This document shows positions 8,162 to 59,403 of a stretch of DNA of 64,000 bases, piece by piece. The first letter of the stretch is position 1. Each line of letters begins with the position of its first letter. A model generated the notes under the pieces. That model did no database searches. It saw nothing but the letters and a program-made list of their open reading frames with translations, and was not told the DNA's origin. The position numbers and the translations under genes were made by a program. The stretch spans positions 3,943,647 to 4,007,646 of the forward strand of contig JAJEKV010000093.1 in NCBI GenBank assembly GCA_021234155.1. The letters run 5' to 3'. The DNA is from Isoetes taiwanensis. Its lineage: Eukaryota; Streptophyta; Lycopodiopsida; Isoetales; Isoetaceae.

Positions 8162-8173
8162 TGGTATCGAGCC
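8162..8173 (+). promoter_or_regulatory. Primer binding site (initiator Met tRNA type)
   Basis: TGGTATCGAGCC immediately follows the 5' LTR. The usual plant Copia site complementary to initiator tRNA-Met is TGGTATCAGAGC, so this copy lacks the A of CAG or carries a local error. Confidence 0.8.
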
Positions 8174-8256
8174 TATTGGCATGTGAAGGGAAGTTTGACA
8201 ATAGAGGAACTTCGGAGAACAATTATGGTAGAATACTTATCGAAAGGGAGAAGGCC

Positions 8257-9070: not shown

Positions 9071-9099
9071 TAGTTGAGGCACAAGTCATCAAAGGAGAG

Positions 9100-10330
9100 G
9101 CTTCTCTTGTTATCCAATCAGACCGGAGTCTCAGAATTAAAGGGAGGCTTACATTTGTGGAAACAAGTGCATGTCTTCTGCTTTGGAAAGAAGGTTCTTC
9201 TTCAGGTGGATTTTGCATGCACATCGGTGATGTTGAAGGATAGGGATCTATTCTCAAGTTATCAAAATGACAAAAGTCTGGTGCAATTGGGAGATTACAG
9301 TGAAATTCAAGTACAAGGAAGTGGTCAATATAATTTCACGCTATTGAATGGTGAAAGTATAGTGCTTCCAGAAACCTTACATGTCCCGGAATTGCGAAAA
9401 AACCTTTTGTCGGTTGCATGTCACGGCAGATCTTTGATGCAAGTTTTCTTTGATGATAAGGAAGTTCTTTTCTTGAAGAATGCATGATTGAAGGGGATAT
9501 AGTGGCCAAGGGCTCAAGACATGGCAATTTGTATGAGCTGGAGGTGTCGATCCAAATCAGGGCCCTAGTTGTATCGACAAAAGAGAAGGAGAAAGTGCTA
9601 CTTTGGCACAAAAGGTGCAGTCACGCTAATGTTCAAGCTTTAAAAATAATGTGAAGAAGAACATGGTTCATGGCATGAAGATAACTATGAAGGCGGACCG
9701 GATCTTTGTGAAGCATGCATCCTTGGTAAGCACCCTCGCAGATCATTTGCAAGTGTAGGCAGCAGAGCTAAGCAAGTCTTTGGAGCTTATCCACTCGGAT
9801 CTTTGTGGACCAACGAGAGGTGTCACTTGCGCCTTGGTAAGGCAGTATATTTCATCACGTTTATTGATGATTTTAGTTGGAAAAACAATTGTCTATTTTC
9901 TAACCAAGAAAAGTGATGCTCTTGAGGCTTTTAAATTGTATAAAGCATGTGTAGAAAATCGGGCGAGGGGAAGAAGATTAAGCAATTACGCACCGATGGT
10001 GGTGGAGAGTATCTTAGTGATCTCTTTCATGATACATGTGATCGAGGGGGATTCAGCGTCAATGCACAACGAGGGCTACTCCTCAACAAAAGCGGTGTTG
10101 CGGAGAGGAAGAATCGCACTTTATGCAATGCGGCAAGAAGTATGCTTGCCGAAAGTCATTTTGCCAAAGTATTTTTGGGCTGATGCAATTCTTTGCGGCG
10201 GTTCATGTGCAAAAGCAGTTGACCACAGTTGCCTTGGATAATGAGATGACTCGAGAAGAAGCTTGGTGCGGAGAGAACCGGATGTTTCTCATTTAGCACA
10301 TTTGGATGTCACATGTACATGTTCCCTGAG
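9100..10330 (+). pseudogene. Copia protease-integrase region, broken
   Basis: The aspartic protease active site (normally DSGA or DSGS) is not readable at about 9200, but the following part is: LFSSYQ, VQLGDYSEIQVQGSG and ETLHVPELRKNLLSV, the usual Copia protease C-terminal block. The pre-integrase motif WHKRCSHAN lies near 9604, then ELIHSDLCGP, RTDGGGEYLSD and GVAERKNRTLCNAARSML, which hold integrase catalytic-core residues (D, D, E). At least four frame changes and several stops separate the blocks. The enzyme would cleave the polyprotein and join the cDNA to the host DNA, but this copy cannot make it. Confidence 0.85.
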
Positions 10331-10404
10331 CATTTCGCGAAAAATTTGATGCCCGTAGCACCAAATGCACTTTCATTGGCTATGCACCTAATCATAAAGC
10401 ATAC

Positions 10405-11697
10405 TTGTTGTGGGATCAAGAGTGGAAAAAGGTATATACCAGCTCAGAAGTAGTTTTTGATGAGTCAAAATCTATGTGTATTGATCCACTTGCAGATGGA
10501 AACTTCATTCAAGACAAATATCTTGTTCTTGATGATCCTCCACTCGTTGAGCTTCAAGATTTGAGGCTGGACCAGCAGCAAGATGTGCCTTTGCCAGTGG
10601 ATGTGCAGCAACCCATCAATGATGATCCACCTCATAATCAAGTTCTTATTGATCCTCGGCTCATTGGAATGCCCCCTCCTCCTGATCAACCGTTGTCACC
10701 ACGTAGCAGAGCACCTTCTCGTAAAGTTCTTGAAAATGCTGAACTTAGTTTGGTTGAATGGTGTTGTTTGGCAGTGCAAGGTGAACCAGCAAGCATTGAG
10801 GAAGCATGGGCTTCATCCGAAGCTCCACATTGGAAACGGGCAGCTGAGGTAGAGCTCGCATCCATGGATGCAAACCAGGTATGGGAACTTGCTGATTTGC
10901 CCATTGGGCGTAAAGCAGTGGATTGCAAATGGCTATTCACGAAAAAGTACAAGGCTGATGGCAGCCTTGATAAGTATAAGGCTAGGCTGGTTGCTCGAGG
11001 TTTCAGCCAAGTCAAAGGTCTTGATTATGATGAGACATTTTCACCGGTCGTGAGAATGAATAGCTTGCGTATTTTGCTTGCCTTAGGAGCCCAATTGGAT
11101 TGGGAAATTCATCAAATGGATGTGGATACGGCATTTCTGAATGGAGATCTTCTTGAGGACATCTATATGCTGCAACCTCCAGGTTTTGAAGTACCCGGCC
11201 AGGAAAACAAGGTATGTAAACTCCGGAAGGCCATGTATGGCTTAAAGCAGGCATCTCGAGTTTGGTACAAGAAGTTTGATGATGCACTTAAGCATGAAGG
11301 ATTTCTGGTTGCTACAACAGATTCTAATGTCTACATCAAGTGCATGAGAGGTATGTATTTGATTTTAGTGCTATATGTGGATGATATGCTTGCAATGGGC
11401 AGCAATCTTCTTGATGTTCAAGCACTTAAATCTAAACTAGCTAGCAGGTTTAAGATGAAAGATTTGGGTGCAGCTAGCTCTTTCTTAGGTATGCAGATAC
11501 ATCGTGATATGAAGAAGAGGCTAATTCATATCAGCCAACCTCGGTATGCTGAATTTCTGCTTGAGCAATTTCGCATGGCAGATTTAAGCCTGTTTCAACG
11601 CCAATGGAAGCTGGCCTCAAATTGTTTGAAGATGAACCTGTTTGTGATAATGTGCAGTCATCTTCTCTACCATATCGGCAGCTTGTTGGGAGTTTGA
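10405..11697 (+). CDS. Copia reverse transcriptase (RVT_2) open frame
   Basis: A 430-codon open frame carries the C-terminal end of integrase, a proline-rich linker and the reverse transcriptase that copies element RNA into cDNA. Diagnostic blocks are WELADLPIGRKAVDCKWLF, KYKARLVARGFSQVKGLDY, QMDVDTAFLNGDL, MYGLKQASRVWYKKF and the catalytic LYVDDML. The frame breaks after the LEQFRMADLS block, where the connection to RNase H normally continues. It is by far the longest frame in the element. Confidence 0.9.
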   Translation: MLWDQEWKKVYTSSEVVFDESKSMCIDPLADGNFIQDKYLVLDDPPLVELQDLRLDQQQDVPLPVDVQQPINDDPPHNQVLIDPRLIGMPPPPDQPLSPRSRAPSRKVLENAELSLVEWCCLAVQGEPASIEEAWASSEAPHWKRAAEVELASMDANQVWELADLPIGRKAVDCKWLFTKKYKADGSLDKYKARLVARGFSQVKGLDYDETFSPVVRMNSLRILLALGAQLDWEIHQMDVDTAFLNGDLLEDIYMLQPPGFEVPGQENKVCKLRKAMYGLKQASRVWYKKFDDALKHEGFLVATTDSNVYIKCMRGMYLILVLYVDDMLAMGSNLLDVQALKSKLASRFKMKDLGAASSFLGMQIHRDMKKRLIHISQPRYAEFLLEQFRMADLSLFQRQWKLASNCLKMNLFVIMCSHLLYHIGSLLGV

Positions 11698-12306
11698 TGT
11701 ATCTCATGACCATAACCGCGACGATCTTTGCTTTCTTTGTGATTGCATTGAGTCGGTTTAACCAACATTATGAGTTAAAGCATTGGCGACTAGCAAAGCG
11801 TGTTCTTCGCTATTTGCAAGGAACCAAAGAGTATGGAATCATTATTGTGATAACGGATCAGCAAGTCTTCATGCATTTACTGATGCAAGTTGGGGCAACA
11901 ATAGGGATTCTCATTCCACTACGGGGTAGCACATGCATGTTTTATGGAGGTGCCGGTAAAGAACGGATAAGCAAAAAGCAATCTGTTGTAGCCCGATCTT
12001 CGCAGAGGCGAATACATTGCCTTATCTATCGGAGTTGCAAATCTTATTTGGTATGATCACTTGCTTAATGATGTTGGTATTTCTCGCGACAACCTATTCA
12101 TGTTTATGTGGACAACCAAAGTTGCATGAAAATGGCGGAGCGACCCGGGACATCATCCTCGGACAAAGCACATTCCAATTCATTATCATTATGTCCGTGA
12201 TCCGGTGGAGAAAGCAATCATCTCATTAATCTATTAAGCCCTTTGGTGCAATGGTTGCGAGATATCTTTACTAAGCCACCGGGCACACAAAAGTTTATGC
12301 AGGTTT
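11604..12306 (+). pseudogene. Copia RNase H region, broken
   Basis: YRQLVGSLMYLM, RLAKRVLRYLQGTKEYGI and KKQSVVARSS are recognisable Copia connection and RNase H blocks. The segment expected to hold the first RNase H aspartates is out of frame around 11860-11960, and further frameshifts follow the serine block. RNase H would degrade the RNA template during cDNA synthesis. Confidence 0.8.
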
Positions 12307-18420: not shown

Positions 18421-19404
18421 TCAGCCAATAATCTCTGTCTTTTTTAGAAAAAAAAAAATAACCACCTATCTCTTATTGCCACGTGGGAGGAAATAACATC
18501 TGTTGTTGATGTGTTTTTTTTTTTCAAAAGTACGTGCATGAACGTGGAATCATCTCATGCGCAAACAGTCGATTTTAATATGGACTTTTAGTGCCACGTG
18601 AATAAAACCTTATTTTGCAACCCACCAAAAGAATCGGATTGATTTGCGCCATTCCGCATCACCAGTCTGAGGACTCCCGATTGTGATATAAATTCCTTGG
18701 TTTGCCCGTGAGCTGCTCTCGGCCTGATTGAAAAAAATTCTTTCTACGATTGTGATATCCCAGTTAGCAGCTCTTGGCTAACGCCATTACATCCCAATCA
18801 GGTTACCATTACCATTCTACAACTTCATTTACATAATCCACGAAAATCTAGTTCTTCTGTTCTATGGCTGGGAACCTATTTATGAGCAAGGAGCATCCGT
18901 ACAGTAATTGCTTCCTGTTTCACATGTGCATTGCATTGCATTGCATTTGTTAGCACATGTGCATCAACCATGAATGCCTATCATAGTCTGTCTGTATACC
19001 AACCAATTTACCTATTTGCTTCCTGTTTCATCACATGTGCATTGCATTGCATTTGTTAGCACATGTGCATCAACCATGAATGCCTATCATAGTCTGTCTG
19101 TATACCAACCAATTTACCTATTTGCTTCCTGTTTCATTCCAATAATAACATATCTCTTCTGTTTTGTTGCATTGCATTTGTTAAATTTTACTTCATACAT
19201 GTGCATCACCATGAATGCCTATCATAGTCTGTGTACTAACCAATTTACCTATTAGTATGACTGAGGGCTGTGCGATGCAGTTATCTTTCTACAATTTATC
19301 CAGAATCTGATATGCCATTCAAATTGAGACACGTTCTAACAGATTGAAGACTTCAATTATATTTCTTATATGCATTGCAGTTCTGATAATATCGTTTAGA
19401 GCCG
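18421..19404 (+). promoter_or_regulatory. Probable promoter and 5' UTR of the ABCC gene
   Basis: Two G-box cores (CACGTG, 18480-18485 and 18595-18600) lie upstream of a TATA-like TATAAAT at 18687-18693. An acceptor-like TGCATTGCAG ending at 19380 suggests a 5' UTR intron. The assignment is inferred from position and motifs only. G-boxes are typical binding sites of bZIP and bHLH factors in plants. Confidence 0.4.
18909..19255 (+). repeat. Three tandem repeats of about 107 bp
   Basis: Units start with TGCTTCCTGTTTC at 18909, 19017 and 19123 and include GCATTGCATTG, CATGAATGCCTATCATAG and ACCAATTTACCTATT. The first two units differ mainly by the number of GCATT copies. The third has an inserted segment. 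The array lies in the leader region of the ABCC gene. Confidence 0.85.
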
Positions 19405-22400
19405 ATGGCTTCGCAGCAAGAGATCCTTCAAGAACCATTACTGAATGAGTGCAATCCTATATGCAGTAACCCGTTATACACATCAAATGCTTTTAGCCAA
19501 CTTTCTTTTGGCTGGTTGAATCCACTTCTAGCTCAGGGCTCTGTGAAAAATTTAGAGTCAACAGATATCCCTCCTGTAGAAGAACAAGACAAGGCAGATG
19601 CTGCCTACAAGCAATTTGTGATTGCCTGGAATGCTCAAAAACAAGGTGATCCATCGAAGCCTCAGTCAGTTGCCCTTGCATTAGCGAGGTGCCATTGGAA
19701 AGCCTTAATCTGGACCGGGTGTTGTGCTCTGTTTCGAACAATCAGTATATCTTGTTCTCCCTGGATCCTCTATTTTTTTATAAACTTTGAAGCTGGAATT
19801 CAGGACTTCAAATATGAGGGATATCTTTTGGTTTCTGTTCTTTTCCTATCTAAGGTATTTGAGAGCGTATTACAAAGGCAGTGGTTCTTTGGCGCTAGAA
19901 GAATTGGTCTACAAATCAGATCAGCTCTTGCTGCAGCCATATACCAGAAGGAGTTGCTCTTATCAGGTTTATCAAGGCAAAGTCATTCAGGAGGGGACAT
20001 TGTGAGCCATATTTCAGTTGACATCAATCAGCTAGGAGAATTTCCATGGTGGTTCCATCAAATATGGGCAGCACCCCTGCAAATTATAATTGCAGTTATT
20101 ACTTTATTTTTTATTGTGGGATGGGCTGCTTTACCTGGTCTGCTAGTTATCATCATAACTGCATTTATACAAGCACCGTTTGCAAGGGCACAACAAAAGT
20201 TTCAAGCTAGTCTTATGAAGAATCAAGATGCACGTTTGAGAACTTCAACTACCATTTTTAACAGCATGAAAATTGTAAAGATGCAGGCATGGGAAAGTAA
20301 GTTCAAGTCAACCATAGAGTCCTTGCGTGTAGTTGAACTCAAATGGGTGGCTAATCTGAAGGGCATGTGGGTATATGGAAGTCTCTTCTATTGGATGTCA
20401 CCTATCTTGACAGCATCAATAGTTTTTGGGTCGTGTATCATATTCAATATTCATCTCACTGCCACAGTCCTATTCACTGTTCTTACAACATTCCGTGTCA
20501 TTCAGGAGCCTGTGCGTAATGTTCCGGATGTGCTTCTGGCAATGATACAAGCTCAGGTTGCACTGGCACGTTTAAAAGGTTTCTTACATGCAGAAGAGCT
20601 AGAGGAGGATGCTCTAAACAGGGGCCCTAAGGAAACATCTGATTATGCAGTTCATGTAGATGCAGGTTTCTTTTCTTGGGATCCTGCTGCACCAAAACAT
20701 TCACTGGAAAACATAAACCTAACCGTAAAGCACGAAGAATTTGTTGCCATATGTGGTTCAGTTGGTTCAGGCAAGTCGACGCTTCTGCATTCCATCCTAG
20801 GAGAAGTGCCGAAAGTTTCAGGATCTGTAAGTGTGATTACCATGGAGTGTTATGCTGCTTGTGATTGCTATATCAAACTTTTGTTTCAACTTCTTGACAT
20901 TATTGCAGGTTGATGTGCATGGAAGCATAGCCTATGTTGGGCAAGTAGCCTGGATACAAAGTGGCACAGTCAGGGAAAATATTTTGTTTGGGAATCCTAT
21001 GCATGCCTCTCGCTATGACAAAGTCCTGGAGGCATGTGCACTTAAGGAAGACTTAGTTGCCTTTACTCATGGGGATCTTACTGAGATTGGACAAAAAGGA
21101 GTTAATTTAAGTGGGGGGCAGAAGCAACGGCTACAACTAGCTCGTGCTTTGTATAGTGACTCTGATATTTATATACTGGATGATCCCTTCAGTGCTGTGG
21201 ATGCTCAAACTGCTGCTTTGTTGTTCAAGGTATCCTGACATCTTCTACATTAAGGTTACATGTCGAAGGGCCAGTGATTTACTCGACCTTTTGTACTCTG
21301 CAGAAATGTATTTCAGGAATGCTATTGACAAAAACTGTCATCTTAGTGACACATCAGGTGGAGTTTTTGACGAAGGCAGACAAAATTCTGGTAAGTGTTG
21401 CATGATATTTATATCTATGTCTTGACATGCGGACGAAACATAGCATTCATTTAGACTTATAAACCGAGGTGAGTTGACTTTGTTGTCAAACCATAATGGC
21501 AGCACATGTTTGGAGTTATAGTCGTCACGAACTATGCTGATCAATGTAGAAAGATAAAACTAGATTAAGTTACAAAAAGAAGTGCCAAGCTTTGACAACC
21601 TTAGATGTACCTAAACAACACGTTTTGGTAAATTTTAATTTTGAAGAACAATGTCCTGCATGAACATCCTGAACTTATCTATTTGAATTCTAGGTGATGC
21701 AAGCTGGAAAAATAAAACAGGCCAGCAAATACGATGAGTTGTTGACGGCTGGCAATATGTTTGTGACATTTCTGAATGCGCATAATGATGCAATGGGGCA
21801 TGCATCTTTGACCGAAAACAATTTAAAGCCAACGGATGCCTTTTATGATGCAGAAGGCATGTCCAAGAAAGTGCACAATACTACAGTTGATGTTAGTCAA
21901 TTAACAAAGGACGAGGAAAAAGAAGTGGGTAACTTGGGCATCAGACCACTTATGAGTTATGTACGAATAAGCAAGGGAGAGGTAGTTTTTACTCTAGCCT
22001 TGGCAGCACAAATCATATTTGTAATTGGGCAGACAGTTAGCAACTTTTGGTTGGCCACCGAAGTCTCGAACTCAAGAATAAGTCCAAGCATGTTAGTAAT
22101 TGTTTATGCAGTGATTTCTTTAAGTTCTGGAGGGTTGGTCTACGTGCGCGGTAAATTGTATAGATCACTTGGTCTCAAAGCATCAAAGGCTTTCTTTACT
22201 GGCTTTATGGATTCTTTGTTCAGTGCACCTATGTCTGTATTTGATTCTACACCTATTGGCAGAATCCTAAGCCGGGTATGTTATTTTTCATTTAATGTTC
22301 ATGATGCTAGAATGTAGAATATTATTGACAAATGGATGTAATTTTCAGGCTTCATTAGACATGAGCATATTGGATATAGATATTCCAGGATGCCTTGCAT

Positions 22401-24796
22401 TTGTATTTGCAGGACTATTTGATGTTCTTACTATTCTGATTGCAATGTCGATTGTGACGTGGCAAGTGTTAGTGATTGGCATTCCGATGATTGGTGTTGC
22501 TTATTGGCTACAGGTACATGGCTACTAATGTTAATACTCTTTTTATTCAAGCAAAAGGAGGTATGTCTAGTCTAAAACTCGTTAAAAGTTCACTTTCAGT
22601 AAATAGCCTTTTATATATTTGTCTCTTCATAATTGCCTTTTAGATACAGTCAAGTAGCTATAACGTGCTGGCAGGATTAACTTCCAGAGAACACTGCAGT
22701 AGTCATTTTTAACCTTACCATAAAGTATGGAGAAATTCAGCCACAATGCGTTAAGCTTTGCATGGCAGGTCTATTATGCAAAGTCTGCTCGAGAATTGAT
22801 GAGAATCAATGGCATCACAAAAGCACCAATTGTAAATTATGCTAATGAAATAGCCTCTGGCGTGACAACAATCCGGGCTTTTGAAAAGCAAAAATATATT
22901 TGTGCTAAGGCTTTACGAGCTGTGGACATTGACGGTTCCGTAAATCTTCACACTTTCACAGCTTATGAGTGGGTGGCACTTCGTGTTGAATTTCTGGGAA
23001 CTGTTATATTATCTGCTGCAGCACTGTTTGTGGTTCTGCAATCTGGGAGCGTGATCCCTGCAGGTAAGGCAAATAAAGTATTTATTTCTTCCTACCATCC
23101 TTATTTTTCTATTTCAATTGTTTTTAACTCTTAACAATTTTGAAGGGCTTGCTGGGCTCTCCCTGTCTTATGCCCTCTCGTTAAATGGCTCACAGATTTT
23201 CTTACTTCAGTGGTTAACATTTGCCGCAAAATACGTGGTGTCAGTAGAACGGATATACAAGTACATGCATCTGCCTCAAGAAGCACCTGCTATAATTGAC
23301 AGCAACCGGCCACTTTGCACATGGCCTTATAAAGGCACGGTGGATCTGCAAAATCTGCAGGTATATAATCTCTTACTAGTTATTGAAACCAAGGCGTTCA
23401 AGTTCAAGATTGAGATATACCGTGTAACATGTGACATGATTTACCAATGTTCATCCGCACATCTGCATTTCCAATGAGGGAGTGGGCACTTATTGTCATG
23501 AGCTTCTGAATTCATGTTTCTCTTTAGATTGTTATCATGCCGAAAATGGTTACTGCTGTGGCTTGTTTTTCAACTTAGGAATCATCATTACTAACCACCT
23601 GGGAACTAATAAATTTTCATCTCTTTTCATAACTCTTAGATTAACTGAAAAGATGCCAGTGTTGATGTAGAAGCCGTGAACTCAGTGCTTGCCAGGGTTA
23701 GAATAGATATTGGAGGATGGTTATGTATCTGGAGCATGATCTAAATGATTAGTGGAAATTATATTGGTACTTTCCTTCTCATACTATAAAGACACTGATA
23801 ATAACATGATATTTCATGCTTATAATATAGGTTCGGTATCGAGAAACAGCTCCATTAATTCTCAAGGGCATCACATGCACTTTTCGTGGTGGGCAAAGAA
23901 TTGGAATTGTTGGACGGACAGGAAGTGGGAAGAGCACACTTATAAGTTGCTTATTTCGCCTTGTGGAACCTACAAGAGGAAGAATTCTTATTGATGATAT
24001 TGATATAATCTCCATTGGACTCCATGATTTGCGGTCTCGATTGGGTATCATTCCTCAAGAGCCCTTCATGTTCCGTGGAACTGTGCGCACTAATATAGAT
24101 CCTCTTGGAATATATAGTGACCATGAGATCTGGGAGGTATTTGTCACATGACCTCAACCTTTACATTCTAGATATAATGAAGAATAATGTCACCCTTTCA
24201 TCTGCAAACAGGTACTAGAAAAATGCTTGCTGAAGGAGATCGTTAGCAAGTCTGATGGGCTTGATAGCTATGGTTTGTATACACATGGTTTGCAACTAAG
24301 GTTTTGAAAAGAAAAATCTTACATCTTTTGTTGAATCTGTATCACAGTGGCCGACGATGGTGAAAATTGGAGTGTGGGTCAAAGACAACTCTTCTGCCTT
24401 GCACGAGTTTTACTAAAACGGACTCGTATTTTGATATTAGATGAAGCAACAGCATCTATAGATTCATCTAGTGACTCTATTATTCAGAAAGTTATCAGAA
24501 AAGAGTTCTCCAACTGCACTGTTGTAACAGTGGCGCATCGAATACCGTCAGTCATTGATAGCGATATGATTTTAAGTCTCAAAGATGGTAAGCGGATAGG
24601 CTATGTTTCTTTCTGTTTTGTTTAAACAGTAACTCTTCTAAGGTGCTGTTGAGCTGCTATATTTTCAGGTGTAATGGTGGAATACGATACCCCATCTACG
24701 CTTTTGGAATGTAAGACCTCATTGTTTGGAATGCTGGTAGCAGAATACTGGTCTAGCCATGAGGGAGTTGACTATGAAAGCCAACTTGAGCATTGA
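19405..24796 (+). CDS. ABCC-type (MRP) ABC transporter, 11 exons
   Basis: A full ABC exporter of the MRP subfamily, expected to move glutathione or other conjugates across the vacuolar or plasma membrane using ATP. Exons by GT-AG sites and phase: 19405-20826, 20909-21229, 21304-21390, 21694-22275, 22349-22513, 22769-23063, 23146-23360, 23831-24136, 24212-24272, 24348-24587, 24669-24796; about 1273 residues. The start ATG has an in-frame TAA 18 bases upstream. Transmembrane domain 1 is about residues 90-390. NBD1 has Walker [10 protein letters not shown] near 450, LSGGQKQR near 541 and ILDD near 561. Transmembrane domain 2 is about 700-1000. NBD2 has GRTGSGKST near 1058, SVGQRQ near 1159, ILDEATA near 1179 and the H-loop AHR. 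The family's N-terminal TMD0 (about 200 residues) is absent. The 3' half is duplicated downstream. Confidence 0.93.
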
Positions 24797-24989
24797 TTTT
24801 CCTATTTGCTTAACATTTGCAAATGTAAGACCAACCGCTAGAAAAGATGGACTCTTTATGTCCAACAAAGAGGTGCAAGGTGACAAACCTAACTTGAGTA
24901 GAGCCCCTAAAATAAAGTGCCAATACAAGAAATCTACACCATGAAGGTTTTGAGATCTCTAGTGGAGGAAAGTGGCCAATATCGGATGG

Positions 24990-25150
24990 CCATATTAACC
25001 ATATTAACCAGTGGTTAATCTAGCCAGGTTAATCTTGCTGGCCTGATTAAACACTGGTTCATATGGTTATCCAATATCAATCAAGTGGTTAATCTGGCCA
25101 AAACTGTGGTTAATTTGGCCCAAAAATGGTTAATTCGGTCAAAAAAACTA
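24990..25150 (+). repeat. Degenerate GGTTAATCTGGCC repeats
   Basis: GGTTAAT followed by CTAGCC, CTGGCC, TTGGCC or CGGTC recurs about seven times in 160 bp, mixed with ACCATATTAACCA and other inverted versions. The second copy lies near 31300-31460. Confidence 0.65.
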
Positions 25151-26759
25151 GGTTTAAAACTGCGCGGGGAGGGTGGAAATTTGATCGGTTGACTCTTGCT
25201 AGTCCATGAGCAGCTTGATCTGCTTTAAAAAGCATGCCAATTGCTTTGTATGCCTCTTTTATGTTAGATTGATGAAGAAAGGTCAAATAGAGTCGGATTA
25301 ATGAATAGTTTTTGGGCTTTAAACTGTGTTTCTATTCATGGGGCTGATATAGAGTGGCCACATTAACCACATCCACCTGAAAAACATGGCATTCCAATTT
25401 CTTGCCGATAGATCAAAGTCAGGTCCAAGACCTGACCGCCAAGAAATAGTGATGCAATACATTCTGTCTAGGTCTCAGAACTTGAATCTGTTGGAATAGC
25501 CATCATCGAGACTGGAGAAAACCTTTCATCTGAAAGCCCCCTTTGGGTCAAGGTAATTCTAGCTGGGAGCTAAATTTACAGGGCCTGAGATTCTCTAACC
25601 CTCCCCAAAGGGATCTGTGCTCTCTGCTCGTGTCATCTAACCGATACTTGTAGGTAAATCCTAGCCTTCTGTGGCAATCGTTGCACTGGGTAGATGCCAT
25701 TGGTTCTCCCCCTCCTTCCTTCCTGTAAACCAAATTTCTTTCATAAGAAACGAGCTTTTTTTTTTAAATAAAAGAAGAAAAACAGCCTGTGCACTCCACC
25801 TATAAAAAAAATCCAACTTTTGTATCGCACTAAAGGGTCGACCGTTTTGACTTCCTCATATACCAGACACATGATGCCCTTGTAACATGTCTGTAATCTA
25901 TACCTAGTGAACTACATCTACTCCTTCATTAGCCACATGAACATCATGCATTCCTTTCGTCTTTCCAATTCACTCTATAACCACTAGTTCCGTTGCCTCA
26001 AACCAGCAACCTATTATCATACTTCCTTGAATAACAATATCCATGGAATCAACTTCAACCCCATGTCATTGACACAAATTTACTTTTTTGAGGATTGAGT
26101 CCATCTATGCATACAAGTAAACTGCATGTTGACTAGGCACAAAAGCATGTGCTTGAAAAATTGGCACGAAGGGAACCATTTGTGAATTCCAAACCATTTG
26201 CAACATGATTACCACTTCTGATAATATATATGTGTAAGTCAGTTTCTCCAATAGATATGACTACTTCCTCTAGCTTATAGGCATAGGCCCTTTCGATGAA
26301 TCCTCACAAGTCAGGACACCAGTTAGCGGTCTACCACTCTCCCAACAATTCCAACATGAGCAGATGCTATGGTACTCTAGGTCAATATTCCTGAGTGTCA
26401 TATCCATGTCGCATGCCCAAATGGGTGGTTCCATGTTATATGTTTTGGCTCATCTTTTAAGGAACTATACTAAAGAGGATTGTTCCCCCTTTTTCAACTC
26501 TTACAGGTTTGCCCGCAGAGCGCGACAACAAGCAACAATTCATTAGTTAGAGAAATTTGAAATTCTCGTTTAGTATGAAATAGGTTGTTGGTTGTTCAAA
26601 AAGCGCCGAAAGTTGTTGGTACTGACCAGAAGTTGTCGGCTATTATTGAGGAATTCGCGCAAGAATGACGGTGTATTATAAATTCAATTTTCTGAGGCCA
26701 TCTCGAGGTCATGTCTGAGTACATGCCAACCTGTAGAAATAAGAAAAGTGTTCATGAAG

Positions 26760-26773
26760 ATCGCGGCCGCGAT
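26760..26773. other. CpG-rich palindrome, site 1
   Basis: ATCGCGGCCGCGAT is a perfect 14-bp palindrome. Its reverse-strand flank CTTCATGA resembles the flank of site 3 (CTTCGTGA). In unit 2 the equivalent site is disrupted near 33063. Confidence 0.7.
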
Positions 26774-26909
26774 TCTTTTTAGCTGAAGATAGTATTGTTA
26801 GGGGTTGTTTATGGATTTTCACCGATAGGAACATATGTTCGAGTAGAGGCCTATGGAGTCAAAGAACACGAATATTAACTACTTTAGAGAAAGGTGTTTG
26901 CTGCAAACA

Positions 26910-26923
26910 ATCGCGACCGCGAT
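26910..26923. other. CpG-rich near-palindrome, site 2
   Basis: ATCGCGACCGCGAT, preceded by AACA exactly as at site 3. The equivalent site is deleted in unit 2 near 33213. Confidence 0.7.
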
Positions 26924-27043
26924 GTTCTGGAGAGGAAAACATATTGCATATGACAATAAATACACAAACGTGTAGATGAAGACATCCCAAAGTTATGTAT
27001 TTCATAATATATTAATGTAAAACTAGGCGCCAAAGCGACCACA

Positions 27044-27539
27044 TCATTGTGTTTCTAAAACAGTATCTAGTATCACACCGAGTTCCTTGGCTATTCGATT
27101 AATGTGTGCTTGCCCAGCTCCTATGACCTCGTTAGTGTCCATCTCTGTGTAGCCTGTTGCATCTGGAATTTCTAAGCCCATGGCATCTGCAAGTTGTTTG
27201 ACATGTTCAGCAGCTTCCTGTGTATTAAACTGATCTGCGCTGCTGTCACCCAGTAATTCGTTTTCCAGTTCAGTGGACTCGTTTGTTGGATATAAAATTT
27301 TCATCCTCTTTGCTGGAACCTGATGTTCTTGTGTGTCAGTATTCTCGGGCTCTTGATTTTCCAGGTCCTGACTGCTTCCCATGTACTCGAAAGTAGACCC
27401 GCCTGTTATAAAAGAAACATAACCATCGAGAGGATTAGTTAGAGTTTCCAAGTTCTTCAATGTGTGGTATATGGATTTGTTACCTATTTGAGTAGATTCT
27501 AGCATTCTTTTCGTCTTCTACATTCTTTCTTCATAGCCC
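27044..27539 (-). pseudogene. Orphan 3' end of the ParB/methyltransferase-like gene
   Basis: A 153-codon open frame on the minus strand (27505-27044) continues upstream, across AAGACGAAAAGA, to the duplication junction at 27540. It encodes an acidic C-terminal tail with the basic patch VPAKRMK (a possible nuclear localisation signal) and a helical segment QEAAEHVKQLADAMGLEIPD, with no known catalytic domain. It is the same tail that ends the gene at 33.3-36.2 kb. Here the frame is undamaged, whereas the version attached to the rest of the gene has frame breaks. Left alone it lacks any upstream exons. Confidence 0.75.
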
Positions 27540-27540
27540 G

Positions 27541-30500
27541 CTGCTTTGTTGTTCAAGGTATCCTGACATCTTCTACATTAAGGTTACATGTCGAAGGGCC
27601 AGTGATTTACTCGACCTTTTGTACTCTGCAGAAATGTATTTCAGGAATGCTATTGACAAAAACTGTCATCTTAGTGACACACATGGGAGTTTTTGACGGC
27701 GGCGCATAAAATTCGTAAGTGTTGCATGATATTTATATCTATGTCTTGACATGCGACGAAACATAGCATTCATTTAGACTTATAAACCGAGGTGAGTTGA
27801 CTTTGTTGTCAAACCATAATGGCGAAGACATGTTTGGAGTTATAGTCGCCACGAACTATGCCGATCAATGTAGAAAGATAAAACTAGATTAAGTTACAAA
27901 AAAGAAGTGCCAAGCTTTGACAACCTTAGATGTACCTAAACAACACGTTTTGGTAAATTTTAATTTTGAAGAACAATGTCCCGATGAACATCCCGAACTT
28001 ATCTATTTGAATTCTAGGTGATGCAAGCTGGAAAAATAAAACAGGCCAGCAAATACGATGAGTTGTTGACGGCCGGCAATATGTTTGTGACATTTACGAA
28101 TGCGCATAATGATGCAATGGGGCATGCATCTTTGACCGAAAACAATTTAAAGCCAACGGATGCCTTTTATGATGCGTAAGGCATGTCCAAGAAAGTGCAC
28201 AATACTACAAATTGATGTTAGTCAATTAACAAAGGACGAGGAAAAAGAAGTGGGTAACTTGGGCATCGACCACTTATGAGTTATGTACCTAATAAGCAAG
28301 GGAGAGGTAGTTTTACTCTAGCCTTGGCAAAGACAAATCATATTTGTAATTGGGCGCATTGGTTAGCAACTTTTGGTTGGCCAATCGTCTCGAACTCAAG
28401 AATAAGTCCAAGCATGTTAGTAATTGTTTATGCAAAGATTTCTTTAAGTTCGAGGGTTGGTCTACGTCTTGTGTAAATTGTATAGATCACTTGGTCTCAA
28501 AGCATCAAAGGCTTTCTTTACGGGCTTTATGGATTCTTTTGTTCGCTGCACCTATGTCCAGATTTGATTCTACACCTATTGGCGTAATCCTAAGCCGGGT
28601 ATGTTATTTTTCATTTAATGTTCATGATGCTAGAATGTAGAATATTATTGACAAATGGATGTAATTTTCGTGCTTCATTAGACATGAGCATATTGGATAT
28701 AGATATTCCGGGATGCCTTGCATTTGTATTTGCGTGACTATTTGATGTTCTTACTATTCTCATTGCAATGTCGATTGTGGCGTGGCAAGTGTTAGTGATT
28801 GGCATTCCGATGATTGGTGTTGCTTATTGGCTACGTGTACATGGCTACTAATGTTAATACTCTTTTATTCAAGCAAAAGGAGGTATGTCTAGTCTAAAAC
28901 TCGTTAAAAGTTCACTTTCAAGAAATAGCCTTTTATATATTTGTCTCTTCATAATTGCCTTTTAGATACAATCAAGTAGCTATAACGTCTTCGGCGAGGA
29001 TTAACTTCCGTGAGAACACCGCAGTAGTCATTTTTAACCTTACCATAAAGTATGGAGAAATTCAGCCACAATGCGTTAAGCTTTGCATGGCGTGTCTATT
29101 ATGCAAAGTCCGCCGAGAATTGATGAGAATCAATGGCATCACAAAAGCACCAATTGTAAATTATGCTAATGAAATAGCCTCCGGGCGTGACAACAATCCG
29201 GGCTTTTGAAAAGCAAAATATATTTGTGCTAAGGCTTTACGAGCCGTGGACATTGACGGTTCCAGTAAATCTTCACACTTTCACAGCCTTTATGAGTGGG
29301 TGGCACCGTGTTGAATTTCGAACTGTTATATTATCTGGCCGCAAAGATCGCTTGTGGTTCTCGCAATGGGGGGCGTGATCCCCGCAGGTAAGGCAAATAA
29401 AGTATTTATTTCTTCCTACCATCCTTATTTTTCTATTTCAATTGTTTTTAACTCTTAACAATTTTGAAGGGCTTCTTTGGGCTCTCCCCGCCTTATGCCC
29501 TCTCGTTAAATGGCTCACGATTTTCTTACTTCCGGTGGTTAACATTTGCCGCAAAATACGTGGTGTCAGAGAACGGATATACAAGTACATGCATCCGCCT
29601 TCAAGAAGCACCTCGCTATAATTGACAAAGAACCGCCACTTTGCACATGGCCTTATAAAGGCACGGTGGATCCGCAAAATCTGCAGTATATAATCTCTTA
29701 CTAGTTATTGAAACCAAGGCGCTCAAGTTCAAGATTGAGATATACCGTGTAACATGTGACATGACTTACCAATGTTCATCCGCACATCCGCATTTCCAAT
29801 GAGGGAGAGGGCACTTATTGTCATGAGCTTCAATTCATGTTTCTTTTAGATTGTTATCATGCCGAAAATGGTTATTCTTGTGGCTTGTTTTTCAACTTAG
29901 GAATCATCATTACTAACCACCGGGAACTAATAAATTTTCATCTCTTTTCATAACTCTTAGATTAACCGAAAAGATGCCGGTGTTGATGTAGAAGCCGTGA
30001 ACTCGGTGCTTGCCGGGTTAGAATAGATATTGGAGGATGGTTATGTATCCGGAGCATGATCTAAATGATTAGTGGAAATTATATTGGTACTTTCCTTCTC
30101 ATACTATAAAGACACCGATAATAACATGATATTTCATGCTTATAATATAGGTTCTAGTATCGAAAACAGCTCCATTAATTCTCAAGGGCATCACATGCAC
30201 TTTTCGTGGTGGGCAAAGAATTGGAATTGTTGGACCCGACAGAAGTGGGAAGAGCACACTTATAAGTTGCTTATTTCGCCTTTGTGGAACCTACAAGAGG
30301 AAGAATTCTTATTGATGATATTGATATAATCTCCATTGGACTCCATGATTTTAGGTCTCGATTGGGTATCATTCCTCAAGAGCCCTTCATGTTCCGGTGG
30401 AACTGTAAGCGCACTAATATAGATCCTCTTGGAATATATAGTGACCATGAGATCCGGAGGTATTTGTCACATGACCTCAACCTTTACATTCTAGATATAA

Positions 30501-31121
30501 TGAAGAATAATGTCACCCTTTCATCCAAAACGGTACTAGAAAAATGCTTGTCAAGGAGATCGTTAGCAAGTCCGATGGGCTTGATAGCTATGGTTTGTAT
30601 ACACATGGTTTGCAACTAAGGTTTTGAAAAGAAAAATCTTACATCTTTTGTTGAATCAGATCACAAAGGGGTCAATTGATGGTGAAAATTGGAGTGTGGG
30701 TCAAAGACAACTCTTACGCCTTGCACGAGTTTTACTAAAACGGACTCGATTTTGATATTAGATGAAGCAACAAAGATCATCTATAGATTCATCTAGTGAC
30801 TCTATTATTCGTAAAGTTATCGGAAAAGAGTTCTCCAACCGCTTTGTTGTAACAAAAGGCGATCGAATACCATCAATCATTGATAGCGATATGATTTTAA
30901 GTCTCAAAGATGGTAAGCGGATAGGCTATGTTTCTTTCTGCTTTGTTTAAACAAGAACTCTTCTAAGGTGCCGTTGAGCTGCTATATTTTCAGGTGTAAT
31001 GGTGGAATACGATACCCCATCTACGCTTTTGGAATGTAAGACCTCATTGTTTGGAATGCCGGTAGCGTAATCTTGGTCTAGCCATGAGGGAGTTGACTAT
31101 GAAAGCCAACTTGAGCATTGA
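27541..31121 (+). pseudogene. Partial second copy of the ABCC transporter gene
   Basis: Starts inside exon 2, 17 bp before its donor, so it has no promoter, start codon, first transmembrane domain or NBD1. Equivalents of exons 3 to 11 follow in order with recognisable splice sites, ending at a TGA at 31119-31121. Almost every exon carries frameshifts or stops, mostly where unit 1 has CAG or CTG. For example, the NBD2 Walker A region and the SVGQRQ region are both disturbed. As written it cannot encode a transporter. If the changes are consensus errors, it would be an undamaged but still 5'-truncated copy, or not exist as a separate locus. Confidence 0.88.
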
Positions 31122-33340
31122 TTTTCCTATTTGCTTAACATTTGCAAATGTAAGACCAACCGCTAGAAAAGATGGACTCTTTATGTCCAACAAAGAGGTG
31201 CAAGGTGACAACCCCTAAAATAAAGTGCCAATACAAGAAATCTACACCATGAAGGTTTTGAGATCTCTAGTGGAGGAAAGTGGCCAATATCGGATGGCCA
31301 TATTAACCATATTAACCAGTGGTTAATCTAGCCAGGTTAATCTTGCTGGCCTAATTAAACACTGGTTCATATGGTTATCCAATATCAATCAAGTGGTTAA
31401 TCTGGCCAAAACTGTGGTTAATTTGGCCCAAAAATGGTTAATTCGGTCAAAAAAACTAGGTTTAAAATCCGCTACGGGTGGGGGAAATTTGATCTATTGA
31501 CTCTTGCTAGTCCATGAGCAGCTTTTGATCTCGCTTTTAAAAAGCATGCCAATTGCTTTGTATGCCTCTTTTATGTTAGATTGATGAAGAAAGGTCAAAT
31601 AGAGTCGGATTAATGAATAGTTTTTGGGCTTTAAACTGTGTTTCTATTCATGGGGCTGATATAGAGTGGCCACATTAACCACATCCACCTGAAAAACATG
31701 GCATTCCAATTTCTTGCCGATAGATCAAAGTCAGGTCCAAGACCTGACCGCCAAGAAATAGTGATGCAATACATTCTGTCTAGGTCTCAGAACTTGAATC
31801 AGTTGGAATAGCCATCATCGAGACTGGAGAAAACCTTTCATCTGAAAGCCCCCTTTGGGTCAAGGTAATTCTAGCTGGGAGCTAAATTTACAGGGCCTGA
31901 GATTCTCTAACCCTCCCCAAAGGGATCTGTGGCTGTGCTCTCTGCTTGTGTCATCTAACCGATACTTGTAGGTAAATCCTAGCCTTCTGTGGCAATCGTT
32001 GCACTGGGTAGATGCCATTGGTTCTCCCCCTCCTTCCTTCCTCTAAACCAAATTTCTTTCATAAGAAACGAGCTTTTTTTTTTAAATAAAAGAAGAAAAA
32101 CAGCCTGTGCACTCCACCTATAAAAAAAATCCAACTTTTGTATCGCACTAAAGGGTCGACCGTTTTGACTTCCTCATATACCAGACACATGATGCCCTTG
32201 TAACATGTCTGTAATCTATACCTAGTGAACTACATCTACTCCTTCATTAGCCACATGAACATCATGCATTCCTTTCGTCTTTCCAATTCACTCTATAACC
32301 ACTAGTTCCGTTGCCTCAAACCAGCAACCTATTATCATACTTCCTTGAATAACAATATCCATGGAATCAACTTCAACCCCATGTCATTGACACAAATTTA
32401 CTTTTTTGAGGATTGAGTCCATCTATGCATACAAGTAAACTGCATGTTGACTAGGCACAAAAGCATGTGCTTGAAAAATTGGCACGAAGGGAACCATTTG
32501 TGAATTCCAAACCATTTGCAACATGATTACCACTTCTGATAATATATATGTGTAAGTCAGTTTCTACTACTTCCTCTAGCTTATAGGCATAGGCCCTTTC
32601 GATGAATCCTCACAAGTCAGGACACCAGTTAGTGGTCTACCACTCTCCCAACAATTCCAACATGAGCAGATGCTATGGTACTCTAGGTCAATATTCCTGA
32701 GTGTCATATCCATGTCGCATGCCCAAATGGGTGGTTCCATGTTATATGTTTTGGCTCATCTTTTAAGGAACTATACTAAAGAGGATTGTTCCCCCTTTTT
32801 CAACTCTTACAGGTTTGCCCGCAGAGCGCGACAACAAGCAACAATTCATTAGTTAGAGAAATTTGAAATTCTCGTTTAGTATGAAATAGGTTGTTGGTTG
32901 TTCAAAAAGCGCCGAAAGTTGTTGGTACTGACCAGAAGTTGTCGGCTATTATTGAGGAATTCGCGCAAGAATGACGGTGTATTATAAATTCAATTTTCTG
33001 AGGCCATCTCGAGGTCATGTCTGAGTACATGCCAACCCAGAGAAATAAGAAAAGTGTTCATGAAGATCCCGGTACGCGATTCTTTTAGTCAAGATAGTAT
33101 TGTTAGGGGTTGTTTATGGATTTTCACCGATAGGAACATATGTTCGAAAGAGAGGCCTATGGAATCAAAGAACACGAATATTAACTACTTTAGAGAAAGG
33201 TGTTTGCTGCAAACGTTCTGGAGAGGAAAACATATTGCATATGACAATAAACACACAAATGTGTAGATGAAGACATCCCAAAGTTATGTATTTCATAATA
33301 TATTAATGTAAAACTAGGCGCCAAAGCGACCACATCATTG
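31122..33340. other. Second copy of the intergenic region
   Basis: Same content as 24797-27043, including the GGTTAAT repeats near 31300-31460. No gene is recognised. Confidence 0.5.
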
Positions 33341-36177
33341 TGTTTCTAAAACAGTATCTAGTATCACACCGAGTTCCTTGGCTATTCGATTAATGTGTGC
33401 TTGCCCAGCTCCTATGACCTCGTTAGTGTCCATCTCTGTGTAGCCTGTTGCATCTGGAATTTCTAAGCCCATGGCATCTGCAAGTTGTTTGACATGTTCA
33501 GCAGCTTCCTGTGTATTAAACTGATCTGACTGCCACGTCACCCAAGAATTGTTTTCGATTCGATGGACTCGTTTGTTGGATATAAAATTTTCATCCTCTT
33601 TGCCGGAACCCGATGTTCTTGTGTGTCAAGATTCTCGGCTCTTGATTTTCCGTGTCCCGATCGCTTCCCATGTACTTTCGAAAGTAGACCTCACATTATA
33701 AAAAGAAACATAACCATCGAGAGGATTAGTTAGAGTTTCCAAGTTCTTCAATGTGTGGTATATGGATTTGTTACCTATTTGAGTAGATTCTAGCATTCTT
33801 TTCGTCTTCTACATTCTTTCTTCATAGCCCGCAGCATCCAGATGATCTAAGATTTCATCAATCCCAGATATATCTGTTGTCTGGGTGATTTTGATGTTGG
33901 GCCTGCTAGAATCGTCTACTTCTTTTTCTATGTCCCTTTTGTCTTCTTCTTCTGATATCCCGGTACTCTGCCGTGCCATTTTCTCAAGTGTTTCAAGGAA
34001 GGATCTGAGAAATCGACATACCTTTCCTTGATTTTCGAATGCCACACTTTTCTTGCCTTGCATCAGTGCGACACGAGAAGCTGTACCTGCTGAGAAGAAA
34101 TCTACAACATAGCCATCTTTGAGCACCAGCTGATCAACGATGTAAGAGGCATAGGAGGTCTTACGCTGACATTGGAGAACAAAATCACCTTCCATAGCAG
34201 CCCATTTGTATCTTGGCTTACCAATGAAATAGGTCTGAAACTTCTTTTTTATTTTTTCATCCGTTTCTTCATTCCCAGTAAGAGGCATGGGGGGCAAGGG
34301 GGTGTTCTTCGGTGCGTTGTTCACCGGTGTGAGTTTAAGCTCCAAAAAAGGTAACAGAGGCAGCACACTGGCGTCACTTCTGTTTATGCACATATGACTG
34401 ATGTAATACTGGTATTCCTTCACCTTCCGCTTGCTCACCCATCCTGGTTCCTCATATGACCCTAAAGAAATATGCCCCCCAAAACCCATTTACATCAGAT
34501 AGACAATCCGCAAGTTTATGGAACGCATGAGAATAACCAAGTGATAAACTTTTGCCGTTGTCATGGTGGCAACCCGGATGAATAGTTCCATGTATTTCTT
34601 GGAATCCCAAATCTTGGAGAAGCCACGCATGTCTATAAAAACCAAAGTTGTGTTCTCGGAAACCGGTGTGGAGGTTGGAATGCCTTCCTTTGTTACTGCG
34701 TGAACAACATTTCTTTTCTCTTTTATCTTTCTTGCATCCTCGTGCTTTAAAATAGCCCTTATCTGTTCTAGAAATGCTACAAGCAAGTTACCTAAAACAT
34801 GTTCCTTGTTGTAATTGCCTTTCAGGAAAGTTCTGTAAAATCTAAAACATGTTCTAAAACATGTTCTGTAAAATCAGGAAAGTCTGCAAGTAGGTCTTCG
34901 AAACTCTTGTATTCTTTTTGTAGCAAGCTAGACGCATAAGATAATATTTCTCTCTGCATGAATGTCAAGCTTCTAATGTCAACCGCTCGCTATTTGCAGT
35001 CAAACCTACCGTGATAACCGGATTGGACCTTCAGGAATGTCCTACCCTCCAAAATTTCGTCTAGCATCTGGGAAACCTCTGCGTTGGACATACCTCTCAG
35101 GTGTCTTAACCATGTCTTGTTGAAGAAGTCTTTGCTCGGCCTATCCGGGAGTTCCCCTTGATCATCACAAAGTTTACGGGCCACCCATTTCCCGGCTACA
35201 TCCATAAGCTTTTTGAAGACGCTATCTTCCATGAAGATGAATTGTTTCTCGTCTTTTAACTCCTTCACTTTTAGTGTGGTGGTGGCTATGTCGTGAAAGT
35301 CCTGTGAAGAAAATAGTCAGAACAATCGCGACCGCGATCTTCGTGAGTTGAAATAAGGTTTGTACCTTCCATGCCGAGGTCGTAGCCGTACCAATAGGGC
35401 CCTGTGGAGGACAACCGTAGGCCTTGTACTGATGACGTAGCTGTTGCAGCTTTTCAAGCAGGGGTTCTCTCTACACAGTATTTGCTATCACGTCGTTGCA
35501 CTGGATGCTCAATTCAATGTACTCCTTATCCGTCAAATTGTCGTTCAGCACCCGGCTTCTTCTTCTGGCATATGCTTTTGCGAATTCCAATTATTGTTCC
35601 AGTGAACCGACAACACTGCAGAGCAGCTGTGCAGCGCAGATACTATGGTTACCGGAAATGATATAAAATTTTGCGCCCACCAGATCAGCAGGCATGGTCC
35701 ATATCACTTTCTTCGTGATATTTTCCATTTAAACTAAGTTAGATGACAATAGAATAGGATTATATACCGAAGATGAAAAACAGGTACCTTGTGATGGGGT
35801 CGAAAGGGACAAGGTCTGCATGTGTGAGCACTTCCGTAGGATAAGTCTTGAAGCTCTTGACTAGTGTCTGTACATGGTCGTTTGAGCGCATCCTGTGGGT
35901 TAGATTTGCTGGTGCAGGCTCGCAATCAAAAATTGAAACCTTTGTGAACCAGTTGACGCCCATAACTGCTAGTCGATAACCCGGTGACAGAAGGAGGCAT
36001 GAAGGATCCTGAGGGCTCTGCACTGTCAGATGTGTTCAGTCCACGGAGATTTATCTTCAATGTAGTGATTTTTCTTGGTGCCATGTTTTCACCAGCTGAG
36101 ACTACTGGACCCATTATAGGATAATTTCTGGCCTGGAAACGTGACCGACGTGCGGCGCGTGCAGGCCACCTTGACAA
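33341..36177 (-). CDS. ParB-like domain plus amino-methyltransferase-like protein, probably damaged
   Basis: Minus-strand multi-exon gene. Likely start ATG at 36084 (MAPRKITT); another ATG in the same frame is at 36177. Part 1 (36084-35790) has VSIFDCEPAPANLTHRM and VQTLVKSF. Part 2, after an intron, begins near 35674 with KFYIISGNHSICAAQ. Together these fit the ParB/sulfiredoxin-like order (PxN, R, L..S, then GxHR..AA). Part 3 (35296-34985) is a helical linker. Parts 4-5 (34786-33809) show TTLVFIDMRGFSKIWD in the place of motif IV and KTSYASYIVDQLVL-KDGYVVDFFSAGTASR, matching motifs X and I of beta-class N4/N6 DNA methyltransferases. The acidic tail follows after an in-frame TAG. Other breaks are a frame change near 35970, a TAG near 35480 and a TAA at 34490. 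It could be a pseudogene or mis-sequenced. Its 3' end faces the ABCC gene. Confidence 0.6.
35325..35338. other. CpG-rich near-palindrome, site 3
   Basis: ATCGCGACCGCGAT lies inside an intron of the ParB/methyltransferase-like gene, close to its 3' splice site. The same 14-mer occurs at 26910 and a one-base variant at 26760. Confidence 0.7.
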
Positions 36178-53274: not shown

Positions 53275-54646
53275 GAGTGCATAGAAGTAGTGGAGAGCAA
53301 TATCGGAGTTAAGCAAGGGTGTCCTTTGTCACCCACCCCAAGTTTGGATGGCAGAATATGGTGGGGATGGAACCCCTTTATTTGGTTATGTAGTTTTATT
53401 GCTCCTTTATGCTGATGATGTGGTTCTTTTATCATGCTCTATTGCAGGCATGCAGAATCACTTAGATGCTTTGGCCTACTTCTGTGATCAGAAAGGTATG
53501 CGGGTGAATATGACAAAGACTAAGATGATGGTTTTTGGAGCTAATAACGTAGAGCATCTTAGATTTTATTTTAAGGAGGAGCCTGTGGAGATTGTAATCT
53601 CATATAAATATTTGGGGATACATGTGGACAAAGGGCCTAGTTTGAATCTTGCTGTTGAACATAGAGTAAATGGAGGGCTCAACGCACGATACAGTATGCA
53701 GCGTAAAAGTGGAAAAGCAGAAATATGGGATTTCAGTTTGAAAAGGACTTTGTTTCGTGTCTTGGTACAACCAGTTCTATTATATGGATGTGAGGTATGG
53801 GGTCCAGGTTTGTCTGCAGATTCTTGGAAAAATTGAGAAAGTGCAAAAAAAATCTTGAGAACTGAATTGGAAACTAAGGCTCAAACCCCATATGACATGA
53901 TGCTTGTAGAATGTGGTATGATGCCTATGGAGGCTAAAGCTTTATGCAGGATGCTCACATATCTTTGTAAGGTACAATTTGATATGGCAAAAGAAAGCTT
54001 ACCGAGACGTGCATTGAAGGAGACGAGGGATACGGGTTGGTATGCAGACATTGTAGAATGGACGAGGAAATGGAGTTTAGATATTCATTGCCTGCGAGAG
54101 AATAGATCGAATATTTGGGGGGTACATCAACATCTTATTAGAAGAAACTGGAGGGTTCCAGAAACAAAAAAGGAATTCTACAGAAAATATATGAATCCCA
54201 TGCTTCAAGAGGCCAAGTATCTTAAAGAAGGTGTATCTTTAAGAACGAGACACATGATAAGCAGGATGCGGCTTAGCTCGCATAGATTGGGGGTTGAGGT
54301 AGGGCGCTGGAGTGATATTCCGCATGAGTTGAGGTTGTGCAAGGTATGTGATATGCAGGAGGTTGAAGATGAAGCGCATGTGATCATAAGATGTCCGTCA
54401 TACAATGGGGCTCGCCACAAGCATGACATTCATTCAAACTCATTGCTGAAATTTTTTGACTTATCTAGGAAACAAGTTGGGAAGTATTTGAAAGAGGTAT
54501 TAGCACAGAGAGAACAGTTATTACATGATAAAGAAGGTAATGTTGTAATTGATGAGGGATGGGGAGAGACTAATGCATTTATGTCAGAGGATGCATTAGA
54601 AGGCATGTTCTATAATGTTGAGTGTACATATTTGAACGTCTCATAG
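53275..54646 (+). pseudogene. LINE C reverse transcriptase C-terminal half
   Basis: Starts with GVKQGCPLSPT (RT motif B), shifts frame, then LLYADDVVLL (catalytic motif) at about 53403, YFCDQKGMRVN, YKYLGIHVDK and LVQPVLLYGCEVWGPG. After a stop at 53836 the second long frame (53855-54646) holds the post-RT region, SHRLGVEVGRW, and a zinc-like CKVCDMQEVEDEAHVIIRC (C-x2-C ... H ... C). Only two frame breaks are present, so this copy is younger than A and D. Confidence 0.85.
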
Positions 54647-59270: not shown

Positions 59271-59403
59271 AAGATATCTTAAAATGCACTATAAACAAAT
59301 AGCTATAAGCGTGTTATAAGGTGTAAGAAAAGGCAATATATCAAGCAAAGCCTTTTAAAAGATATCTTTTTTCTGGAATGGCCTCAAGAAAACTAAAAAA
59401 GCA

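Follow-up and report, generated by a model that had tools for sequence, protein, structure and literature searches.

The window analysed here is a 64,000-nucleotide stretch of the Isoetes taiwanensis genome (contig JAJEKV010000093.1). On its minus strand, positions 32836-36117 hold a transposon fragment, delimited by blastn, which comprises the 3' part of an element (the second gene and the 3' end) and lacks the 5' part and the DUF7869 gene. The nearest copy, L021, matches at 92% over 3171 bases and 97% over 153 bases, together spanning 36117-32836, and a further relative, L022, matches at 93% from 35964 to 32833. Since the homology to L021 stops at 36117, no more than the element's 3' part is present in the window. 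With two DUF7869 proteins as queries, the best match in the window was at E 0.94, and the end of a B56 phosphatase gene lies about 1.1 kb beyond the fragment. A decayed right terminal inverted repeat ending in AAATTTCTCTAACTAATGAATTGTTGCTT was read by eye at 32836-32880 (minus strand), the same place as the right ends of the relatives, which end in CTCTAATTAATGAAATCATGCTT.

The gene in this fragment has three coding blocks, as read in two complete relatives (X and Y, below), and a splice donor can be read in the window itself, which bears out the introns proposed in an earlier note on this DNA. All of its parts lie on the minus strand. The exon at 35788-35963 encodes the first half of a ParB-like region (MGVNWFTKVSIFDCEPAPANL...DPIT), ends at the donor AG/GTACCT (splice site by eye), and is 81% identical to L038 over 59 amino acids. 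The next exon, at 35366-35712 (borders by eye, the left one approximate), encodes the second half (KFYIISGNHSICAAQ), including a ParB-like signature, IISGNHSICAAQLLC, at 35618-35662. The last exon, at 33335-35301, encodes a helical middle region, the methyltransferase-like domain, and a C-terminal tail. Within it, SENTTLVFIDMRGFSKIWDSKK (34595-34660) occupies the position of catalytic motif IV, with DMRG replacing DPPY, and DFFSAGTASRVALMQGKKS (34046-34102) forms the motif I (AdoMet-binding) region. The peptide strings quoted in the earlier note are all present in the window translation: the frame at 35760-36035 holds VSIFDCEPAPANLTHRM and VQTLVKSF, the one at 35591-35728 holds KFYIISGNHSICAAQ, and the one at 33809-34489 holds KTSYASYIVDQLVL, VVDFFSAGTASR, and VAFEN. 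They are not chance readings, since they recur in 20 genomic relatives, with the motif I string in 20/20, the string at the motif IV position in 19/20, and an IISGN string in 16/20; these relatives were picked by similarity, and several are close to one another.

The window gene is interrupted by six stops, two in the second exon (35591-35593 and 35471-35473) and four in the last (34990-34992, 34490-34492, 33809-33811, and 33626-33628), and by a frame change near 34.87 kb. The same last exon is open over 671-697 amino acids in L004, L017, and X. With six stops and the truncation, a working gene at this locus is not supported. The window copy reads instead as a dead, 5'-truncated second gene of a transposon, from which no full protein would be made.

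Part of the fragment lies in a 6.3-kb tandem duplication (21212-33832) that contains the 3' half of an ABCC-like transporter gene and the 3' end of the transposon. Unit A (21212-27541) is 95% identical to unit B (27540-33832) and carries a second copy of the last ~1 kb of the element (26530-27541, minus strand), with a tail ORF open over 27044-27517. The units differ in 127 clusters, 87 of them touching CAG or CTG in unit A, and the differences of unit B at these sites look like errors. At 21212-24800, 84/107 CAG/CTG sites are altered in unit B against 10/72 GAC/GTC sites; the corresponding counts are 5/44 against 1/40 at 24801-26680 and 14/29 against 3/17 at 26681-27541. When the comparison is reversed, 10/87 CAG/CTG sites across the whole of unit B are altered in unit A. 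Many of the changes in unit B are not C-to-T, which led us to reject ordinary decay of methyl-cytosine as the source of these CAG/CTG differences. The assembly is described as based on Nanopore R9.4.1 reads (PMC8566536), and the differences presumably arose as nanopore miscalls where CHG sites are methylated, in a unit that had not been polished; unit B is possibly a spurious duplicate from gap filling. Among CAG/CTG sites common to both relatives, 13/62 are altered in the gene (33840-36000) against 5/44 controls, and 15/29 at 33000-33839 against 4/12 controls. Some of the stops could therefore be miscalls, while the 5' truncation stands. C-to-T is the commonest window-only change in the gene (28 cases), so real decay has occurred there too. 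The ABCC-type transporter gene (19390-31000, plus strand, by eye) has its 3' half present twice, and the transposon 3' end lies antisense to it within the duplicated span.

The window copy belongs to a large family. Using a 226-amino-acid methylase-like piece of the window as query against the genome (1,658,258,908 bases in 1110 contigs), we found 3182 first-look candidates, and all 150 that were scored, the window included, match at E 3.5e-75 or lower with 55-100% identity and open frames of up to 697 amino acids. Stretches of 10 kb were read around 20 copies, and the adjoining 8 kb was added for two. The complete relatives X (L041 and L038) and Y (L042 and L039) are ~10.2 kb each and 94% identical to one another over about 10 kb. 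Both are bounded by inverted repeats of the type AAGCATGATTTC...GAAATCATGCTT, which match ungapped at 26/30 bases in X and 22/30 in Y, and this type of right end was also seen in nine other copies. Gene 1 of X and Y lies on the minus strand and has a frame of 849-1019 amino acids with a DUF7869 domain (E 7e-43 in X, 9e-42 in Y); gene 2, which is the gene seen in the window, lies on the plus strand. Sola elements have a 4-bp target-site duplication. The duplications read by eye here are of 4 bp, AATT/AATT in X and AAAG/AAAG in Y, in a register chosen to fit both, and none was recognised in a third element, L053. A long minisatellite-like array (L039 8902-10000) adjoins element Y.

The pairing of the two genes is not confined to X and Y. 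Among the places listed (149 window-family places, which are the 150 listed less the window's own, and 62 Y-type DUF7869 genes, from 65 rows with three second fragments left out), 17 pairs lie within 15 kb of one another where ~0.17 would be expected, and all 17 are divergent. In each of the three elements read over that gene (X, Y, and L053), the DUF7869 gene lies inside the same inverted repeats as gene 2 and divergent to it. The DUF7869 protein is the presumed transposase. We also considered a captured host gene family of the ParB-methyltransferase type, not borne by a transposon and expanded by ordinary duplication. Such a family is compatible with the introns and with the several copies that combine long open frames with purifying selection. 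However, the copies are dispersed over many contigs, every pair near a listed DUF7869 gene shares one divergent arrangement, and the ends are inverted repeats. Because of the co-location and the inverted repeats, we set this explanation aside as very unlikely. A single captured host gene, one of the options in the earlier note, is not supported. The note had also offered part of a large mobile element, and the copy number, inverted repeats, and DUF7869 co-location support that alternative.

The genome also contains sister elements with a recognisable methyltransferase. The Pfam profile N6_N4_Mtase gave 1443 candidates, and it exceeds its curated cut-off in all 150 places scored, with matches covering mostly profile positions 133-220. 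Among 150 listed DUF7869 places, 24 pairs with N6_N4_Mtase lie within 15 kb (~0.41 expected), 22 of which are divergent. Searching the genome with a DNA pattern that encodes IADLPYG gave 379 occurrences (180 + 199), compared with one for the reversed control. One such element, L053, has 34-bp inverted repeats (88%) about 8.1 kb apart and a DUF7869 gene (E 1e-52). Its methylase gene contains IADLPYG; the piece that follows holds WVLDAFSGSGTT and matches N6_N4_Mtase at E 2.3e-18. The motifs ADLPYG and DAFSGSGTT are both carried. Among the places listed, no pairs within 15 kb were found between the window family and N6_N4_Mtase, between the window family and the 150 best DUF7869 places, or between N6_N4_Mtase and the Y-type transposases; no element with both the window-family gene and N6_N4_Mtase is therefore known. 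Related arrays of short palindromic repeats occur in L053 at 4849-4960 and 6880-7155, in the interval separating the two genes and in the one separating the ParB-like part from the methylase part. These arrays are possible candidate binding sites for the accessory protein.

The earlier note had staked its domain assignments on profile searches, and a direct Pfam search found neither a ParB nor a methyltransferase domain in the window copy or the scanned window-family proteins. Window pieces matched only weak, unrelated names in Pfam, PHROGs, and NCBIfam, and N6_N4_Mtase was found neither in these pieces nor in three window-family last exons. A sequence search of solved structures gave nothing taken as meaningful (best E 0.93 in one search); cytochrome c peroxidase at 0.027 was likewise not taken as meaningful, and a Cas9_PI match in L038 (E 0.0025), which is under the cut-off of that profile, was put down to chance. 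In profile-to-profile comparison, the window-family profile (18 rows, 6 retained by the program) aligned with 37 E. coli and viral methylases at hhalign 74%, with a score of 41.1 over 201 columns, and the best of 60 column shuffles reached 21.8. That methylase set consisted of 36 of 57 hits plus YhdJ, with near-duplicates and sequences containing X left out. Against these 37 methylases, the homology follows the fold through motifs IV, X, and I, in that order. Against the L053 protein the score was 28.9 over 234 columns (shuffle maximum 25.9). A second set, of 20 phage ParB-methylase fusions, gave only 0.63% with the window family, whereas the L053 enzyme gave 95.5% with the same set. We consider it well supported, mainly through the sister elements, that the second protein derives from a beta-class DNA amino-methyltransferase; one of the three profile sets failed. 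The methyltransferase resemblance proposed earlier thus holds as descent; the direct Pfam match is absent, and the degeneracy of motif IV had been overlooked.

In the profile alignments, the family strings FIDIRG and FIDMRS align at the DPPY-type motif. D[IMVF]R[GS] stands at motif IV in the window and in all 19 relatives with the site found, among 20 read, and a (D/N/S)PP(Y/F/W)-like catalytic motif is present in none of these. Motif I reads DFFS[AG]GTAS in the window and in all 20 relatives. We determined dN/dS over the methyltransferase-like region in the 8 of 20 relatives with the longest open last exon. Five close pairs span 0.15-0.48 (L038/L039 0.27, L034/L023 0.27, L034/L033 0.15, L023/L033 0.21, and L036/L037 0.48), and the distant pair L034/L037 gave 0.06. 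The remaining 22 of 28 pairs have saturated synonymous differences (0.76-0.88) and non-synonymous differences of 0.11-0.26. In the 8 copies compared, the changed protein of the window branch is under purifying selection. A conserved protein with this activity lost or changed would look like this, and the window branch is probably an inactive methyltransferase variant. Alternatively, the protein could be an unusual enzyme that is still active on DNA or RNA, an amino-methyltransferase with a non-canonical D-x-R-G/S motif. In favor of this reading, the window and 19 relatives share motif IV with its aspartate, the window and 20 relatives share motif I, and the region is under purifying selection. 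Against it, motif IV has lost its proline and aromatic positions, and motif I has FSAGTAS in place of SGSGT. We know of no active beta-class enzyme with a D-x-R-G/S-type motif, and we consider continued activity unlikely.

The ParB-like part is a plausible assignment that draws on motif strings. The strings of the window family and their order look ParB-like (KKYYIISGNHSIFAAQ; in L053, MHYVLGGNHSFKARRQL), and a GNHS string, by eye, is common to the family and L053. ParB_N (PF02195) matched neither the window pieces nor three joined exon pairs, and a genome search with ParB_N gave 0 places over the cut-off, with 2 candidates and 1 place at E 1.49. Against ParB sets, the family's ParB-like part scored 16.0, within the range of 60 shuffles (maximum 16.9), while two known ParB sets compared with one another as a positive control gave 71%. 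L024 was left out of the 13 ParB-like rows because its string differs (INWF). The score against the ParB-like piece of L053 was 20.7, with a shuffle maximum of 20.6. That L053 piece itself gave weak hits only, DUF6551 at 0.0023, under the cut-off, and the ParB-like phrog_723 at 0.29. A position-specific ParB score was too weak to use, since the positive control YbdM (-52.7) fell below all 11 family rows scored; L053 was lower still. Of the ParB-like domain proposed in the earlier note, the strings and their order are present, and profiles gave no confirmation.

ParB-methylase fusions also occur in phages, and the earlier note had raised a viral element. These fusions speak for an endogenised virus or large viral element with a phage-like ParB-methylase: from 120 stretches, 80 viral loci were listed, 79 of them with a motif-bearing ORF, and 20 of these 79 ORFs also carry methylase motifs. 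However, the methylase piece of the window had no match in phage records (tblastn) or viral contigs, and no viral gene was found among those ORFs of X, Y, and L053 scanned against Pfam. A viral origin of this kind is not borne out, and we regard it as exceedingly improbable. In searches with pieces of L053, the ParB-like piece drew no match in phages or plasmids, the N-terminal piece of the methylase drew 37 Mycobacterium phage records (best E 3e-3), and the C-terminal piece drew one viral contig.

As a joint reading, it is quite likely that the window family is the second gene of a high-copy terminal-inverted-repeat DNA transposon in this lycophyte genome, descended from a methyltransferase, with its catalytic motif replaced, kept under purifying selection, and with an accessory role. 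The gene 2 product may be an element-encoded DNA-binding accessory factor, marking or protecting the element. Where the motifs are intact, as in sister elements, the protein probably marks the DNA of its own element with N6-methyladenine or N4-methylcytosine, and such self-marking would aid transposition or counter host silencing. In the window branch, DNA binding (and perhaps AdoMet binding) is most likely retained without methyl transfer, and the protein would act as a structural or anti-silencing cofactor. A more tentative proposal, to which we give less than even weight, is that in one transposon lineage a methyltransferase has turned into a catalytically dead, conserved element-recognition or anti-silencing protein, beside sister lineages whose intact enzymes would write 6mA or 4mC in the same nucleus.

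Plant proteins of the VANDAL/VANC and CACTA TnpA-like kinds are element-encoded, DNA-binding anti-silencing or transposition cofactors. Their likeness to Isoetes gene 2 is a functional analogy, with no homology claimed. The methyltransferases of DIRS, dinoflagellate, and charophyte elements are of the cytosine-C5 or Dam-like class, not beta-class PF01555. As described in passages of PMC5890265, these enzymes (Dam-like ones from DIRS, and Dnmt from elements of dinoflagellates and charophytes) resemble the Isoetes family in being transposon-encoded, and some are under purifying selection; they differ in belonging to retrotransposons, and the charophyte enzyme retains its key residues. N4CMT of bdelloid rotifers resembles the Isoetes family as an intron-containing eukaryotic gene for a bacterial-type N6_N4_Mtase (PF01555), but it is a host gene that silences transposons, whereas the Isoetes gene is transposon-borne (PMC8885841). 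The same source describes the bdelloid enzyme, in the passages concerned, as without eukaryotic homologs, a wording that the transposon-borne PF01555 genes predicted in the Isoetes genome qualify.

The kind of protein found here is already known from Sola1-1_Ec32 of the brown alga Ectocarpus and from cited algal cases, which makes the Isoetes family a land-plant branch of that kind. Sola1-1_Ec32 encodes a ParB-like and N4/N6-methyltransferase protein on the strand opposite the transposase, and such proteins are suggested to bind and epigenetically modify their own transposon (PMC12477816). That paper names the ParB-like domain in the corresponding algal proteins and cites Iyer, Abhiman and Aravind 2011 and Petroll et al. 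2025 for proteins of the ParB-methyltransferase type in transposons of green and red algae. The latter are, as cited there, like the Isoetes family in domain pair and transposon setting, and the citing passage does not name land plants. Sola1-1_Ec32 is 21.5 kb long with a 1104-amino-acid protein, compared with about 8-10 kb for the Isoetes elements, and Ectocarpus has one Sola-1 family (table row "1, 1989, 2, 0.17%") where Isoetes has thousands of candidates (PMC12477816). The likeness to Sola1 is by description only, and the passages on Sola1-1_Ec32 do not mention a changed catalytic motif (PMC12477816). As far as the open-access literature can tell, the vascular plant host, DUF7869 as partner, the scale of the family, and the variant catalytic site are new.

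With these elements, amino-methyltransferases carried by transposons reach beyond algae into a vascular plant, where their copy number is very high. One genome offers natural motif-intact and motif-changed versions of one accessory protein, so the service of such proteins to the transposon is directly testable. The family also bears on disputed reports of 6mA and 4mC in plants, since the genome may encode hundreds of bacterial-type methyltransferase genes.

Other mobile-element features were seen by eye in the window. These are a Harbinger-like ORF of 362 amino acids at 62196-63284 (plus strand), LINE reverse-transcriptase ORFs at 53291-54646 and 59359-61475, and a copia-like region at 7921-12056.
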